Below are positions 439-15,298 of a DNA stretch of 20,011 nucleotides, one piece after another. The stretch is taken from positions 1 through 20,011 of the IMG/VR virus record IMGVR_UViG_3300006810_000566, one strand, 5' to 3'. Source of the DNA: a virus. Under the pieces are notes generated by a model. The model worked only from the letters and a program-made list of their open reading frames with translations. It was not told the origin of the DNA and searched no databases. How positions within the stretch are numbered: the first letter of the stretch is position 1; the number at the start of each line of letters is the position of its first letter. Made by a program: the position numbers and the translations under genes.

Positions 439-738
439 ATGAAAGAATTTTTAGGAAAACAGTTTACAAAAAAAGTACCCTTTATGGGTGAAGAAGTTGA
501 GATCAAAGTCCTTACTGTAGGTTCGGCTCGAGAAATTGAAGACCTAACCAAGAAGATGAATAAGCTTCCAGAAGAAAAAAGAGACAATCTTGAACTCCTT
601 CGTAAAGTAATTCGCATGGCTGTTATTGGTGCAGAAGATCTCACTGATGACGAGCTAGATTCTTTTCCTGTATCGGAGCTAACTGACCTTTCTCAAGCAA
701 TCATGGGTGTAGGCAGTTCCGAAGAGGGAAACGCATAA
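439..738 (+). CDS. Tail assembly chaperone, short form (lambda gpG-like)
   Basis: This is the unshifted product of a G/GT-type gene. In this class the short protein and its frameshifted fusion bind the tape measure protein and recruit tail tube subunits in the host cytoplasm. The protein is about 100 residues, acidic, helical, and opens with a small beta segment (FLGKQFTKKVPFMGEEVEIKVL) typical of these chaperones. Two in-frame ATGs compete. The one at 433 is only one base from the AAGG Shine-Dalgarno sequence (428-431), while the ATG at 439 has seven bases of spacing, so I prefer 439. The strongest support is the slippery heptamer near the end (726-732) and the continuing -1 frame that encodes a gpT-like domain. 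Sequence similarity to lambda G cannot be checked here. Confidence 0.85.
   Translation: MKEFLGKQFTKKVPFMGEEVEIKVLTVGSAREIEDLTKKMNKLPEEKRDNLELLRKVIRMAVIGAEDLTDDELDSFPVSELTDLSQAIMGVGSSEEGNA
726..732 (+). promoter_or_regulatory. -1 programmed ribosomal frameshift site (G GGA AAC)
   Basis: The heptamer GGGAAAC fits the X XXY YYZ rule in the exact reading phase of the upstream chaperone: codons GGA (727-729) and AAC (730-732) can re-pair as GGG and AAA. It closely resembles lambda's G-GT site (GGGAAAG). The zero frame stops two codons later (TAA 736-738), while the -1 frame is open from 687 to the stop at 1065-1067. Only a weak downstream stem is visible (AAGTTC 737-742 with GAGCTT 762-767). Confidence 0.88.
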
Positions 739-1067
739 GTTCAGCTGACCTTTTCTTATATGAGCTTGCTTTTCACTTGAAAATGCCTGTTTATGTAATA
801 TTAAATGAAATGCCAGCTGAAGAATTAAACAACTGGGCCTTATACCTAGACGCTCGCCCTATTGGGTGGAGAGAAGATAATCGAACTTCAATGCTTTTGG
901 GTGCTCAAGGCGTAAAGAAATTAGGACCAGAAATATTTCCTACCTTAAAGCAAATTAAAGAGTGGGATGCAAAACGATCTGATGAGGACGCTATGAGACA
1001 AAGCTTCCGAAAGTCACCTTTTGCAGCACTACTAGAAAAAGCACATAGTAAAAAAGGGAAGAAATAA
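732..1067 (+). CDS. Tail assembly chaperone, frameshift extension (gpT-like part of GT fusion)
   Basis: This is the downstream part of the GT fusion and is read only after a -1 slip at 726-732. The fused protein would be about 209-211 residues: the whole short chaperone up to its Gly-Asn, then RISSADLFLYELAFHLKMPV and onward. In lambda-type tails the T part contacts the tube subunit while the G part holds the tape measure. The segment has the usual gpT-like look: a helical N-terminus, a conserved-looking MPAEELNNW helix and a basic C-terminus ending KKGKK. A TTG at 777 could be called as an independent start, but it has no good Shine-Dalgarno sequence and would cut away the in-frame helical segment encoded from 732. 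The frameshift model explains the coding potential better. Confidence 0.85.
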   Translation, partial: RISSADLFLYELAFHLKMPVYVILNEMPAEELNNWALYLDARPIGWREDNRTSMLLGAQGVKKLGPEIFPTLKQIKEWDAKRSDEDAMRQSFRKSPFAALLEKAHSKKGKK

Positions 1068-1539: not shown

Positions 1540-4500
1540 ATGGCCTTAGAAATTGAAATTCGCAGTAATTCTAAGCAAGCAGAAGCCAGCCTTAAGAAAA
1601 TTCTGAATGCAATTGACCAACTTCCTGAGAACGCCAAAAGAGCGGACAATCAACTAAAGAATGCTTTTTCTACTTCTTTTTCAGGATTGGAAAAAAATCT
1701 TAAGGTACAAAATCGAGAAATTTCAAAGTTTTCTAATAAAGTAGGAACTGATTTAACAAAGCTGAACTCCTCAGTAGACAAAACTTCAAAGGTAGTACAG
1801 CAAGCTAGTAAGAACATTACTAGTTTTATTCGAACCACAAGCATTGCACTAGGGGGATTACTAGCCGCTGGTGGAATTACAAGCATAAGCTCTCAATTTA
1901 CGGAGCTTAGTAACCGTATTGCGCTTACTACTGGTAGAACTAGTGCGCTAGCTTCTCAACAGGCTAAATTGTTTGCTGTTTCAAGAAGGTCAAATGCACA
2001 ACTAAGTACTACTATTAACCTGTACTCTAGTTTGGCGCTAAACACAAAAGCAAGTAATGAAGAAGCCTTAGCTCTTACCGAAACCTTAATCAAGGCTGGT
2101 AAAATTGGAGGGGGTTCTGCCGCTACAATTGATAACGCTATTATTCAGCTACAGCAAGGTTTAGCCTCTGGTGTGCTACGTGGTGAAGAATTAAACTCCG
2201 TGTTAGAAGGGTTACCTAGAGTAGCTCAAGCATTAGCACAAGAGTTAGGTAAAGACATTGGTCAGCTTAAGGGGCTTGCCGCGCAGGGGCGAATTACTGG
2301 AGAGGTAGTAAGAGACGCGCTTGTAAACTCCGCTGGTCAAATCAATAAAGAATTTGACACTTTAACTGTAAGCCTTTCAACCTCTTTAGGGAATGCAGGT
2401 AGAAACATCGGGATTGAGCTTAACCGTGTATTTACTACTATTTCAGGTAATGGACGAGTAGGAAGCTTTATTGAAAGCATTGGAAGCTCTATTGCTAACT
2501 TCCTAAGAAATCTTTCAGTACAGATTAGAGTTTTACAAACAGAATTTTTATTATTTAGACTTGGTTTTGATAATGCCTTTACTAACTTTGGAACAACTGC
2601 TCTCGCTACTTTCCAAAAATTAGTAGATGGCGTAGTAGACGTTTCTAGTAAACTAGCAAAGGGTACTGCGATCGTAAAGTCTTGGGCTAGCGATATTGCT
2701 GGAATATTTTTTGACTTGTTTATTGAAGTCGTAGGTAACTCTACTTTTCCGGACATGGTAGATGGGGTAGTAGACTACAGTAAAAATTTAAATAAAGGAA
2801 TTAGCCCTACAAAAAGTTTTACTCAAAAATATGCCAAGTTATTTTCAGAACTAGGAAGCTCTGTTAAGTCTTCCTTAGATAATTCCACATCAGATACAGA
2901 TTCTGGTTTATCTGGTTTATTTTCAAGAGCTGGAAAAGTTATTGCTAAGGTAGTTAGAACTATTACTGCTGGTACTATTGAGGGTATTGCTCGCGCAATT
3001 TCTCTTGCTTTTGTAGTAGGTTTTGCAGGATTATTAGTTGCTGGCGGATTAGCTGGGAGTTTAGGCGCTAAAATTGCAACAGCCTTTGTTGGAGTAATTG
3101 CCGCTTATTTTGCAGGTTTTGCATCTAACTTTGACATTCAAAGGGCTGGCGAAAATGGTATTATCGCTGAAATTTTAAGAAATCAAGAAAATTTATTATT
3201 TACAATAGCAGATGGAATTAGCTCTATTGCTAGCGGTGCGGCGGCGCTTTCGCCACTTCAGCCTATCAAAGAGGCTTTAGATTTTGCTTCTAAAAATATA
3301 GTAGAGCTTGCTACCGCTTTACCCTTTTTCCTTTTTGGGTTAAAAACCCTTTTTTCAGGACTAAAAGGTGCTGGCAATACTCTCTTAAACCCGCTTGGCA
3401 CAACTGCTTTAGGAGCAGGTAATGCTGTTGGAGATGTGTTTCAATCAAGACTTGCACAAAGCCAAATTTTACCATTACAAGCAGAAACGGAACGTTTACA
3501 AGCAGAGCTTGGCGGCGTAAGTGAAGCTTTTGCTAACGAAAAGATTAGACTTCAAAATACTGTAAGAGACAGAGCATCATTAAACCAACAACTAGCAGAT
3601 CTAGAAGTTAGAAAAAATGATATACTTACAAAAGGGTTTACAGATGAACGGGGTATTAGGCGAAAAGGCCTTTTAACTCAAATTAGAGAAAACCAAAAGA
3701 CTCTTCAATTAACCTCACAACTACTTGATGGCCCAGTTTCAAGATTACGAGATGCAATAAGCAGATCCGTTCTTGCCTTTGGTCAAGTTGGCGGGGTTGT
3801 AGGAGGAACTCTCGGTTCCTTCTTGACTGCCGGTGTTTTTAGTGACTTAGCAAAAAGTTTTGGATTTAATGCTGGTGAATCATTTATCACTATACTTTTA
3901 GGTTCTCAAATTGGCGCAATCGTCGGTGCGTCTATTGGTAATGCTATTTTCAGGGTTTTTGCAACTCTTATAACTTTTGCTCTTAATGGCATATTCATTA
4001 GCATATTTGCAAAATTAACCCCTATTATTTTTAAAGCGTTTTTTCTTCCTTTAAAAAGGGCTGTCACCGCAGTACTTGCTAGCTCTTTTCTTGCTCCTGT
4101 TCGCGCCTTTTTTCTTGGACTATTTGGCATAGCGGTTAGGGCTTCACTTATTGCTACCTTTGTTTTAGTAAGCGCTATTCAAAGAGCGGCAATAGTTACA
4201 GCAAGCGCAACAGGTGCGGCGTTATACAGAACTGCTATAATCGCAGGTAGTGTTTTAGCACAAGCCGCCGCATTTGCTGGTACTTTTGCTTTACTTAATG
4301 CAATACCGATTGCGCTTGGCGCGGCAGTAACTGCTTTATTAGATTATGCATTTAGCGATGATAGCATATTTCAACAAGCCGGTAAATGGCTTGGTGGTGC
4401 TATATTTGAAGGAGTTACTTGGGCTAAACAGCTAGGTAAGGACATCAGTGACGCGATATACGAAGGTATAAGCTGGGTTACTACGCTAGGTTCAGATATT

Positions 4501-7446
4501 GCAACTGCTATTAGAAACGGACTTCTTAACTTTGTAACTTCAAATCCTACTGGTCCTGATCAGTTAAATCGATTTGCTAGCGGTGGTATGGTACGTGGAA
4601 AAGGAACAGGAACCTCTGATTCAATTCCAGCTATGCTTTCAAATGGCGAATACGTTGTTAATAGCAGGTCTACAAGTAAAAACAAAGACATTTTAGAGTA
4701 CTTAAATAGAACAGGTAGTTTACCGGGATATGCCTTGGGTGGATTAGTTATGCCCCCGGAAGGGTATACAGGTCCGGCAAAGTACACTAAGGATATAAGA
4801 GATCTTTTTGGTGGCGTATCAACCTATGATAATCTAAATAAGAAGGTAGTAGATGCTACTACAAAAACAGAGCTTATCGAAGCAATAAATAATTTTGTTG
4901 AAGAAGAAATACTATTAGATTCTAAAAGAACAGGATTGTCAACTGGCCTTTATAACGTAGTATACGGTGATGATCCATATGACGCTTATTATAATTATGT
5001 TGGTAACTATAAACCAAGAGAGAGCGATGGTGGTCTTTCTCCAAAAATCGCACCTGAATTAAAGCTTCCAAAAATAAGTGAAAGTGATTCGATAGCAAGT
5101 ATTCTAGAACGCGCTGCAGTTATTGCTCATGAAATTGGGCATATGCGTGATGTAAATAGACGCCTTGTAGCAAATAGTGAAGGGCCTCTAGGCGACTTTA
5201 GAATAAATAAAATGGCACTGATGATAGAGAGTTTCTCTAAAAAACCCGGTGACTTCTATGAAGAATCAACTGCTAGTGCAAGCGCTTTAAAGGCGTTTGA
5301 TAACGTAGTAGGGCCTGCAGGAGTTCCTATTACAGACTCCTTCGATTATCGAAAAGCTCTTGGTTTCAGCTTATTGAGTTATATTACTAGTTACCCATTT
5401 GACTACGCAAGGATGGCCACGCAGGTTTTTAGTAAGCCAGCAGACGTTGGCGACCATCTTAACTCTATCGATGGTGGATTTGCGCTTGATTTCGTAAATG
5501 ATTATATGGTAAATCAAAATGGAGACAGTAGTAATCCTAGTTTTAGAGGAATGTCTCTTAATCCTATATACGACATTGTAACTGAACAGAGCCAGTTTAC
5601 AAAAGATCTCATAGAGGCCCAAGCAAAAGTGGGCATTTTTGAGTATTACGCTGCTGAAGAGGGGCGAGCTGACTACATTAACGAAATGACTCAATCGTTC
5701 TTAAACCGCTTCGTAGACGCTCAGAGTGCTCTAATGTCTTACGCTATGAGTGACACGGGATTTGCTACAGGAGGTTCTGTATTTGGATCCGGTGGGCCTA
5801 CTTCTGACTCAATTCCTGCTATGTTGTCTAACGGTGAATTTGTTGTTAAGACTTCAGTAGCTGATAAGCATCGTGGTTTCTTAGAAAGCCTAAACAATAC
5901 TGGAAGGATTCCGGGTTTTAGTGATGGAGGCAGTGTAGGAGATACTTCTGGAACTTCATTTTCAGGATTTACATCTGGACTTAAAGATTTGTTAAATCAA
6001 TTAGATGGGCTGTTAGCAGAAAACCTAGGAGAAGGCTACGATACTGTTAAAGATGTTCTTCAAAACTTACTTGGTTTTCTAGAAAAAGGCGTTTCAAATT
6101 TAACGGGATTCGGTGATCAGGCTCCTAACCCAAATGCTGAAATTTTAACACCCGCAAATTTAGCTGATGCGATTGCGTCAATAGATTTTGGCAATGTTAA
6201 ATTTGATACTAAAGACCTTGAAGCGGCACTTAATCCCAGCACTAAAGAAGGACTTGATCTTACTAAAAGGCTTTTGTCTCTTAATGAATCTAGAGCAAAG
6301 GTAGAAAGCAAGATTGCAGAAGCAGGGGAGGAAGCTAGTCTTGAATTAACAACTCAACTAGCTATCCTTAATAAGGACATTATTAAGGAGCTTGGTGAAT
6401 TAGGTATACTGCTAAACGAAAATAAGGAAATAGCAGAACGCCAGATTGAGGCTATAAATCAACTTGCTCAAGCTAGTTTACAAAGCTTTAAAAGTGAAAC
6501 CCAAGGCGGTATAGCGGGTCTTCTTAAAGGCGAATTAAACCTTGAAGGATTTGCTAAAGGTATTCTTGATAGCTTTACAGGTACTGTCCTAGATACTTTA
6601 GCTGGTGGTATAACCCAAGGTATCTTTAATACTGAAAGCGGGCAATTAAGCGGCATAGGAACTACTCTTGAAAAATTGTTTACTAAACTAGGTTTGGGCG
6701 GATTTGACATTGGTAGCTCAATTGGCGGCACTCTAGATTCTGCCGTTACTGAACTAGGTACAATCGCAAACCCAATGTTTGTAAGAATTGTAGGAGCGTT
6801 CGGAGGCGGCTCTGGTGGTGGATTACCCCCTATAGCAACGGACGACGACTTCTTAAATATCGATCAACCTGACTTTGAAACAGGCGGTCTTGCAAATTTA
6901 GGATTACCTCCTATAGCAACGGACGACGACTTCTTAAATATTGATCAACCTAACTTTGAAACAGGCGGTTTAGTAGACGGTGAGGAGGCGGCAGGTCCAT
7001 TCGGCGCAATCTTTGAAAAGTTTACTGGTAGCATTAGTGGAATCTTTAGCTCACTGCCCAGTAGTCTTAGCGGAGTTTTCGGTGGCTTACTTGGCGGTTT
7101 AAAAGGTGCATTTAGCGGCCTTACGAGCCTATTTAGCGGCGGTGGCGGCGGTGGCGGTATCGGTGGTCTTTTCAGCGCAATTGGAGGATTCTTCAATGAT
7201 GGTGGTATAGTTCCCGGTGGTGGCCCTGTTCCTGCTATTGTTCACGGCGGTGAAATGATTCTTAACAAGCGTCAACAATCTAACTTGTTTGACAATATGG
7301 ATAAATCTAAAAATATGTCACAACAACAAAATGTTAGCATTAATGTGACTGGTGATATCTCTCGTCAAACCAAGAAAGAAATCTTCACTATGCTACCACA
7401 AATAGCTACTGGTGTAAATCAATATAATGTCGAAAAAGGTAATTAA
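1540..7446 (+). CDS. Tape measure protein with embedded HEXXH metallopeptidase-like domain
   Basis: This 1968-residue protein sets tail length and is later released into the host envelope. Start ATG 1540 follows CAGGAG (1525-1530). Residues about 115-300 look like the tape measure N-terminal domain (repeated GLASGVLRGEELNSVLEGLP-type helices). Hydrophobic, Ala/Gly-rich stretches lie at about 485-525, 590-606 and 750-940, fitting a membrane-penetrating segment. A Gly-rich module containing TSDSIPAMLSNGE occurs at about 1012-1070 and 1408-1467, with a looser third copy at 1884-1916. Between the first two copies lies a soluble ~340-residue domain with IAHEIGHMRD (His1197, Glu1198, His1201) and candidate third ligands at Glu1241/Glu1242 or Glu1373/Glu1374. 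Residues 1761-1814 hold a 27-residue tandem duplication. The C-terminus (NVSINVTGDISRQTKK) is typical of the class. At about 0.15 nm per helical residue the length would correspond to a tail approaching 300 nm, less if the peptidase domain does not span the tube. Confidence 0.95.
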   Translation: MALEIEIRSNSKQAEASLKKILNAIDQLPENAKRADNQLKNAFSTSFSGLEKNLKVQNREISKFSNKVGTDLTKLNSSVDKTSKVVQQASKNITSFIRTTSIALGGLLAAGGITSISSQFTELSNRIALTTGRTSALASQQAKLFAVSRRSNAQLSTTINLYSSLALNTKASNEEALALTETLIKAGKIGGGSAATIDNAIIQLQQGLASGVLRGEELNSVLEGLPRVAQALAQELGKDIGQLKGLAAQGRITGEVVRDALVNSAGQINKEFDTLTVSLSTSLGNAGRNIGIELNRVFTTISGNGRVGSFIESIGSSIANFLRNLSVQIRVLQTEFLLFRLGFDNAFTNFGTTALATFQKLVDGVVDVSSKLAKGTAIVKSWASDIAGIFFDLFIEVVGNSTFPDMVDGVVDYSKNLNKGISPTKSFTQKYAKLFSELGSSVKSSLDNSTSDTDSGLSGLFSRAGKVIAKVVRTITAGTIEGIARAISLAFVVGFAGLLVAGGLAGSLGAKIATAFVGVIAAYFAGFASNFDIQRAGENGIIAEILRNQENLLFTIADGISSIASGAAALSPLQPIKEALDFASKNIVELATALPFFLFGLKTLFSGLKGAGNTLLNPLGTTALGAGNAVGDVFQSRLAQSQILPLQAETERLQAELGGVSEAFANEKIRLQNTVRDRASLNQQLADLEVRKNDILTKGFTDERGIRRKGLLTQIRENQKTLQLTSQLLDGPVSRLRDAISRSVLAFGQVGGVVGGTLGSFLTAGVFSDLAKSFGFNAGESFITILLGSQIGAIVGASIGNAIFRVFATLITFALNGIFISIFAKLTPIIFKAFFLPLKRAVTAVLASSFLAPVRAFFLGLFGIAVRASLIATFVLVSAIQRAAIVTASATGAALYRTAIIAGSVLAQAAAFAGTFALLNAIPIALGAAVTALLDYAFSDDSIFQQAGKWLGGAIFEGVTWAKQLGKDISDAIYEGISWVTTLGSDIATAIRNGLLNFVTSNPTGPDQLNRFASGGMVRGKGTGTSDSIPAMLSNGEYVVNSRSTSKNKDILEYLNRTGSLPGYALGGLVMPPEGYTGPAKYTKDIRDLFGGVSTYDNLNKKVVDATTKTELIEAINNFVEEEILLDSKRTGLSTGLYNVVYGDDPYDAYYNYVGNYKPRESDGGLSPKIAPELKLPKISESDSIASILERAAVIAHEIGHMRDVNRRLVANSEGPLGDFRINKMALMIESFSKKPGDFYEESTASASALKAFDNVVGPAGVPITDSFDYRKALGFSLLSYITSYPFDYARMATQVFSKPADVGDHLNSIDGGFALDFVNDYMVNQNGDSSNPSFRGMSLNPIYDIVTEQSQFTKDLIEAQAKVGIFEYYAAEEGRADYINEMTQSFLNRFVDAQSALMSYAMSDTGFATGGSVFGSGGPTSDSIPAMLSNGEFVVKTSVADKHRGFLESLNNTGRIPGFSDGGSVGDTSGTSFSGFTSGLKDLLNQLDGLLAENLGEGYDTVKDVLQNLLGFLEKGVSNLTGFGDQAPNPNAEILTPANLADAIASIDFGNVKFDTKDLEAALNPSTKEGLDLTKRLLSLNESRAKVESKIAEAGEEASLELTTQLAILNKDIIKELGELGILLNENKEIAERQIEAINQLAQASLQSFKSETQGGIAGLLKGELNLEGFAKGILDSFTGTVLDTLAGGITQGIFNTESGQLSGIGTTLEKLFTKLGLGGFDIGSSIGGTLDSAVTELGTIANPMFVRIVGAFGGGSGGGLPPIATDDDFLNIDQPDFETGGLANLGLPPIATDDDFLNIDQPNFETGGLVDGEEAAGPFGAIFEKFTGSISGIFSSLPSSLSGVFGGLLGGLKGAFSGLTSLFSGGGGGGGIGGLFSAIGGFFNDGGIVPGGGPVPAIVHGGEMILNKRQQSNLFDNMDKSKNMSQQQNVSINVTGDISRQTKKEIFTMLPQIATGVNQYNVEKGN
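4894..5760 (+). other. HEIGH zinc-peptidase-like domain within the tape measure protein (approximate limits)
   Basis: The sequence AAVIAHEIGHMRD (HEXXH at residues 1197-1201, bases 5128-5142) has a hydrophobic helix before the motif and the glycine common in zincin active-site helices. A glutamate pair in YEESTASASA (1241-1242) stands about 40 residues later, a spacing compatible with gluzincin-type third ligands; AEEGRAD (1372-1378) is an alternative. Around the motif the composition changes from Gly/Ala-rich tape-measure sequence to ordinary globular sequence with many Tyr, Asp and Pro. Role is inferred: peptidoglycan peptide cleavage during DNA entry, or processing of the tape measure itself. 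Confidence 0.55.
6820..6974 (+). repeat. 81-bp tandem duplication in the tape measure gene
   Basis: Copies begin at 6820 and 6901, exactly 81 bases (27 codons) apart. They encode GLPPIATDDDFLNIDQP followed by D or N and then FETGGL. Only a few bases differ, mainly silent changes and one Asp/Asn substitution, so the duplication appears recent. It keeps the reading frame and lies just before the Gly-rich third module. Confidence 0.9.

Positions 7447-8611: not shown

Positions 8612-8615
<4 letters not shown>
8064..8615 (+). CDS. Probable tail-tip protein (lambda gpL position; DUF2163/DUF1833-like appearance)
   Basis: This 183-residue protein starts at ATG 8064, one base after the previous stop, with GAGG at 8051-8054. 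Its stop overlaps the next start (ATGA at 8612-8615), which suggests translational coupling to the gpJ-like gene. The layout is recognisable: an acidic substrate-free opening (VCDPFLLLDMEF), beta strands describing a loop LTNLPYNVVVGPDTYIS, a repeated strand pattern around YRIKITDYQN and VTVRLGV, and a C-terminus RRTDKDTQRQIDATDTCFDR. That last element resembles the end of DUF2163/DUF1833-type phage proteins found between the tape measure and host-specificity proteins. These form part of the tip hub. The protein is shorter than many DUF2163 members and lacks the cysteine cluster of lambda gpL. Confidence 0.6.

Positions 8616-15298
<6,683 letters not shown>

Follow-up and report, generated by a model that had tools for sequence, protein, structure and literature searches.

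Organization of the tail gene region

The window, i.e., the whole stretch of 20,011 nucleotides analyzed here, carries the features from its left edge through the tape measure gene on its plus strand. At its left edge lies the C-terminal end of a major tail protein gene (positions 3 to 125), which is cut by the window edge and was recognized by comparison with the relative L011: the encoded product shares 88% identity over 40 amino acids with the end of the L011 protein encoded at 2057 to 2665, and the latter matches phrog_158 major tail protein (E value, 1.5e-9). It is followed by a small open reading frame (ORF) found by the ORF caller, at 183 to 425, whose 80-amino-acid product is of unknown function and yielded no PHROG match up to an E value of 0.01 and no Pfam match up to an E value of 0.1. 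In L011, an ORF of similar size, also without a PHROG match, is present between the major tail protein gene and G (2744 to 2995).

The ORF caller then gives two ORFs, one at 433 to 738 and the other at 777 to 1067 with a TTG start, and this is the split into two genes that the original prediction had expected from automated callers. The first, hereafter G, encodes 101 amino acids in the zero frame and is the putative main tail assembly chaperone product. Window G showed only weak matches, to phrog_9046 and phrog_893, neither of which has a known function, and its homologue in phage DSS3_VP1 matches phrog_344 tail assembly chaperone (E value, 5.2e-5). The second, hereafter T, matches phrog_337 tail protein (E value, 2.3e-6) and scored 17.7 bits against PF06223 (Phage_tail_T), below the cut-off of 25.9. 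Downstream are the gene for a tail completion or Neck1-like protein at 1069 to 1467 (phrog_169; E value, 2.8e-18; PF04883 below cut-off) and that for a tape measure protein of 1968 amino acids at 1540 to 7446 (PF20155, TMP_3; E value, 3.1e-43). G and T are therefore placed between the major tail protein and tape measure genes, as expected for the G/GT class, with the small ORF separating the major tail protein gene from G and the Neck1-like gene separating T from the tape measure gene.

Two further features of the downstream genes are recorded here. Within the tape measure gene, positions 5128 to 5142 encode HEIGH, an HExxH zinc protease-like motif situated between two SDSIPAMLSNGE repeats, and this region gave a weak, sub-threshold match to Peptidase_M48. 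An ORF of 2228 amino acids at 8612 to 15298 contains two collagen-like stretches of uninterrupted G-X-X triplets, 205 and 200 triplets long (window positions 11147 to 15025).

A slippery heptamer at the G/T junction

The heptamer GGGAAAC is located at 726 to 732 in the phase G_GGA_AAC of the 433-to-738 frame, and it is followed by one sense codon (GCA) and the TAA stop (736 to 738), in agreement with the in-phase heptamer near the zero-frame stop that had been predicted. In the −1 frame, stops occur at 684 and 1065 with no other in between; thus, this frame is open from 687 through 1067, as had also been foreseen, with the T domain read from 732 and terminated at 1065 to 1067. Since −1 read-through of the junction yields ...EEGN-RISSADLF..., the Gly-Asn-Arg-Ile junction peptide proposed for the fusion protein is correct. 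When the codons of the window G ORF were shuffled, an in-phase GGGAAA appeared in the overlap in 0.7% of the trials and any in-phase XXXYYY in 10.6%. Taken singly, the window sequence provides moderate evidence for the heptamer, and it is the comparison with relatives that proved decisive.

Conservation of the heptamer among relatives

A first set of relatives was assembled with the GT fusion as the query. It contained 79 loci, or 80 sequences together with the window, of which 77 gave both G and T (L023, L024, and L025 were without a G match), and these formed 41 junction clusters. In every one of the 77 sequences having both halves, T is in the −1 frame relative to G. An in-phase GGGAAA was found within the overlap in 37 of the 41 clusters, followed by C in 18, G in 16, and A in 3. 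Elsewhere, none was present among 3968 G-frame codon positions scanned, which begin at the start of the G match, not always at the start codon, and include some of the 37 sites. The base preceding GGA is G in 37/37 clusters, across seven different codons, against a background of 15.3% G-ending codons in the G genes of this set. Furthermore, the −1 frame of several relatives opens just 10 to 13 nt ahead of the zero-frame stop, and therefore little except the heptamer is left for the frame switch.

To enlarge the set, we added the best 80 of 415 and the best 80 of 154 relatives from two IMG/VR profile scans, a single relative from the scanned genomes of bacteria and archaea, and three GenBank phage records out of the six that had been identified. 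This gave 241 sequences (240 loci and the window) in 101 clusters, a collection that leans to the relatives of the query because the best matches of each profile scan were kept. Some contigs are present twice, and a few truncated copies form clusters of their own; L096 and L097, for example, are identical over 108 nt. The test applied here was the T-frame codon pair GGG AAA together with the next zero-frame stop, with homology of G tested in the first 80 sequences only. In this set, capped at the best 80 relatives per IMG/VR profile scan, GGGAAA occurs at the junction in 93 of 101 clusters (46 with C, 40 with G, and 7 with A as the next base), and the zero-frame stop lies 0 to 18 nt past the heptamer in every one of the 93. 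A frame break of this kind, seen in one virus record of 20,011 bases that may be a fragment, might have arisen from a sequencing or assembly error or from gene decay, but the same break recurs in all these related clusters, a few truncated duplicates among them, and in the isolated phage DSS3_VP1. We therefore rejected this explanation, whose probability we regard as negligible.

The heptamer is kept not only in sequence but also in codon phase across the relatives, as tandem tRNA slippage requires. Slippage of RNA polymerase, instead of the ribosome, would be expected to generate the same kind of fusion; however, with only three G and three A, the runs here are short for slippage during transcription. 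This alternative appears extremely unlikely and was rejected as well.

GGGAAA is absent from the remaining 8 of the 101 clusters of the same capped set, and their junctions were inspected by eye. L229 has C_CCA_AAG in its place, and in L024, L026, L031, L082, and L185 a G_GGG precedes GAR or AAR. At the latter, only the P-site tRNA could re-pair fully, and the sequence possibly represents a weaker alternative slip site. A clear slip site was not found by this reading at the junctions of L037 and L074. Throughout L037 to L039 and L074 to L076, T is in the −1 frame of G, yet a recognizable heptamer is absent.

As for gene order, T is followed by the neck gene and the tape measure gene in 74 of the 85 clusters with enough downstream sequence (16 of the 101 were too short), and in 7 clusters the best neck match precedes the end of T; both counts refer to the capped set.

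Selection in the −1 frame and the start of T

We calculated pN/pS for three groups of relatives, picked by hand from heptamer type and stop distance (n = 12, 11, and 6). Between the heptamer and the equivalent of the first ATG, the values for the −1 frame were 0.31, 0.24, and 0.30, versus 0.75, 0.71, and 0.44 for the zero frame and 1.9 to 2.5 for the third frame of the same DNA. For the 45 nt that precede the heptamer, pN/pS was 0.94, 1.27, and 1.77 in the −1 frame, i.e., no constraint, and 0.99 (the group of the window), 0.58, and 0.23 in the zero frame, so that the end of G is unconstrained in the group of the window. These data indicated that, from the heptamer up to the first ATG, it is the −1 frame in which selection on the protein operates.

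This result bears directly on whether T could be a separate gene that starts at TTG 777 or ATG 783, through reinitiation or coupling once translation of G has terminated. The ORF caller reports T in that form, and an ATG equivalent to 783 is common in the relatives. Nevertheless, selection on the −1 frame already acts ahead of ATG 783, this ATG is replaced by an Ile codon in the near relative L002, and an AFHL motif, invariant in 24 aligned T sequences, lies upstream of it. The phrog_337 match already starts at residue 6 of the −1 reading, upstream of TTG 777, and it weakens from an E value of 2.3e-6 to one of 6.8e-4 if T is translated from that codon. The original prediction had called the TTG start implausible, and indeed no SD-like motif precedes TTG 777, ATG 783, or ATG 810 or is present among the first four T-frame starts of the window; among the 41 cluster representatives, such a motif was detected at the first four T-frame starts only in L030 and L073, more than 100 nt downstream in both. 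An independent start of T was thus rejected as very unlikely.

RNA structure downstream of the heptamer

Immediately past the heptamer, the window RNA is not unusually stable. For positions 735 to 788, 28 of 200 synonymous recodings were as stable (z = −1.05), and the 60 nt from 4 nt past the heptamer do not exceed other G/T stretches in stability (z = −0.33). For this segment, the statement in the original prediction that only a weak stem is visible was fair. Over a longer segment, the RNA is somewhat stable: the 96-nt fold from 732 reaches −25 kcal/mol, with 5 of 100 synonymous recodings as stable, in part because of an 8-bp stem, 740 to 747 pairing with 814 to 821. This possible extended stem (740 to 821) encloses an inner hairpin and starts 7 nt after the heptamer. 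Of 24 start and length combinations tried on the window, the best had 5 of 300 recodings as stable, which is unimpressive given the number of combinations.

The 8-bp stem is not conserved across the clade of the window. All 8 pairs can form in the window and in L018, in which two of them are kept via changes on both sides (by eye); 7 form in L010, 6 in L118 and in L002, the nearest distinct relative, and 1 to 5 in the other 24 of 29 sequences. Over the 29 sequences, 47% of the cells of the outer stem were paired in register versus 41% when it was slid one codon either way. The whole window fold was imposed on 28 of the 29 sequences (L079 was excluded because its downstream coding length differs), and the controls were mixed: the covariation score was reached by 1 of 500 shuffles and the number of paired cells by 2 of 500, versus 248 of 500 for pairs with changes on both sides and 363 of 500 for further pair types. 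A stimulatory structure common to the clade was rejected, RNAalifold having predicted 0 pairs in 12 sequences of 70 nt. Among 27 clusters with the heptamer and stop distance of the window, 6 have a 54-nt fold equalled by at most 2 of 200 recodings (mean z = −1.40), and 5 have a 96-nt fold equalled by 0 of 100 (mean z = −1.32); the stable folds in these GGGAAAC clusters differ from that of the window. From these sequences, a lineage-specific stimulator in the clade of the window is possible.

A sister lineage presents a different arrangement. There, GGGAAAG or GGGAAAA stands straight before TAA or TAG, often with a hairpin, in contrast to the lineage of the window, with GGGAAAC and lineage-specific folds at most. 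The hairpin is strong, has up to 18 bp, starts 8 nt after the heptamer, and lies inside the T coding sequence. It was observed in L028, L030, L060, L066, L072, L073, L191, L196, and others, and EBPR siphovirus 1 (L083) is a member of this lineage. Of 30 clusters with GGGAAAG or GGGAAAA directly before the stop, 17 have a fold equalled by at most 2 of 200 synonymous recodings; for all GGGAAA clusters, the number is 28 of 93 (again in the capped set).

In 30 sequences of the sister lineage, 75.6% of the hairpin cells were formed, versus 41.7 to 45.9% when the hairpin was slid by 1 to 3 columns. Its covariation score was reached by 0 of 500 shuffles and by no slide; the relatedness of the sequences inflates the shuffle test. 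Two measures gave weaker results: the seven pairs with changes on both sides were reached by 61 of 500 shuffles, and a slide of +2 surpassed the true register in such pairs (9 versus 7) and in their cells (22 versus 19).

The relatives can thus be compared as a set: their slip site hardly varies, but their downstream RNA structure does. Tentatively, and with rather less than even confidence, we suggest that the heptamer is nearly fixed in one homologous family while stimulators and the A-site codon turn over. If the efficiency is held constant, the family would offer a natural series for how a phage keeps its G:GT ratio while swapping parts, and the exchange of stimulators between lineages under a constant heptamer is the one point worth following.

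Proposed expression of G and GT

The phase of the heptamer and its conservation, the homology, the gene order, and the selection on the −1 frame all fit the chaperone frameshift proposed in the original prediction. Owing to the comparison with relatives, we consider it nearly certain that the window encodes a lambda-type G/GT tail assembly chaperone with a programmed −1 ribosomal frameshift. Weighing against it are the Phage_tail_T score below the cut-off, the matches of window G to PHROGs of unknown function only, the lack of a stimulator common to the clade, the 8 clusters devoid of GGGAAA, and the unconstrained end of G in the group of the window. Most ribosomes would read 433 to 738 and produce G of 101 amino acids, and a minority would slip back one base at G_GGA_AAC to produce a GT fusion of 211 amino acids, 100 from G and 111 from position 732 onward. 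From the features observed in the DNA, we infer the occurrence of slippage, its rate, and the chaperone role of the products. If the analogy with lambda holds, the tape measure protein would be bound by many G and few GT molecules, T would recruit the major tail protein, and the G:GT ratio would have to be held for correct tail assembly. By the same analogy, a low frameshift efficiency in the window is plausible. The annotation can be regarded as settled: 433 to 738 and the −1 frame ORF should be joined.

Comparison with known systems

In lambda, the heptamer ends with AAG, and G and T are part of the tail gene cluster, ahead of the tape measure gene. The window resembles lambda in having a short G ORF, a T domain in the −1 frame, a heptamer of the G_GGA_AAN type near the G stop, and this same position among the tail genes. 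It is unlike lambda in having AAC for AAG and in the Neck1-like gene that separates T from the tape measure gene, and the similarity of the two is at the profile level only. As described in the excerpted text of PMC5009743, many copies of lambda G attach to the tape measure protein, a few GT molecules bring the major tail protein, and the product ratio of G to GT, 30:1, is crucial. The same excerpts state that, in Escherichia coli, AAC is much less shift-prone than AAG (A_AAA_AAC versus A_AAA_AAG), which counts against a frameshift at the GGGAAAC of the window. The identical heptamer is nevertheless reported for tail chaperone frameshifts in Caulobacter phage Colossus (excerpt of PMC3556154) and haloarchaeal virus HCTV-1 (excerpt of PMC5009743), the same kind of gene in other phages and hosts, likened here by published description. 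A tail chaperone frameshift at another heptamer is predicted for SPP1 (PMC6316719, in excerpt), and 2397 joined tail chaperone genes are counted in SEA-PHAGES genomes according to the excerpted PMC10885494.

Homologous counterparts are found in two phages. By tblastn, G and T of DSS3_VP1 (MN602266) and of Pelagibacter phage Kolga (MT375529) are homologous to those of the window, with 34% and 37% identity, respectively. The DSS3_VP1 junction contains GGGAAACTAA in phase, and GGGAAA is absent from the Kolga junction. Both pairs (L081, MN602266.1 4007 to 4713; L082, MT375529.1 2576 to 3141) were deposited as separate hypothetical proteins. Judging from these sequences, both probably need a joined annotation, less securely so for Kolga. 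Among the titles and abstract openings listed by searches for such a site in marine phages or pelagiphages, none names the G/T family of the window.

Since frameshifts with the same heptamer in tail chaperone genes are reported elsewhere, as far as the excerpts cited above go, the window joins the known G/GT class. Taken together, the sequence comparisons indicate that it almost certainly carries a G/GT frameshift of the already known lambda type, kept in its uncultured relatives as well, and it otherwise confirms the known rule for long-tailed phages in an uncultured group.
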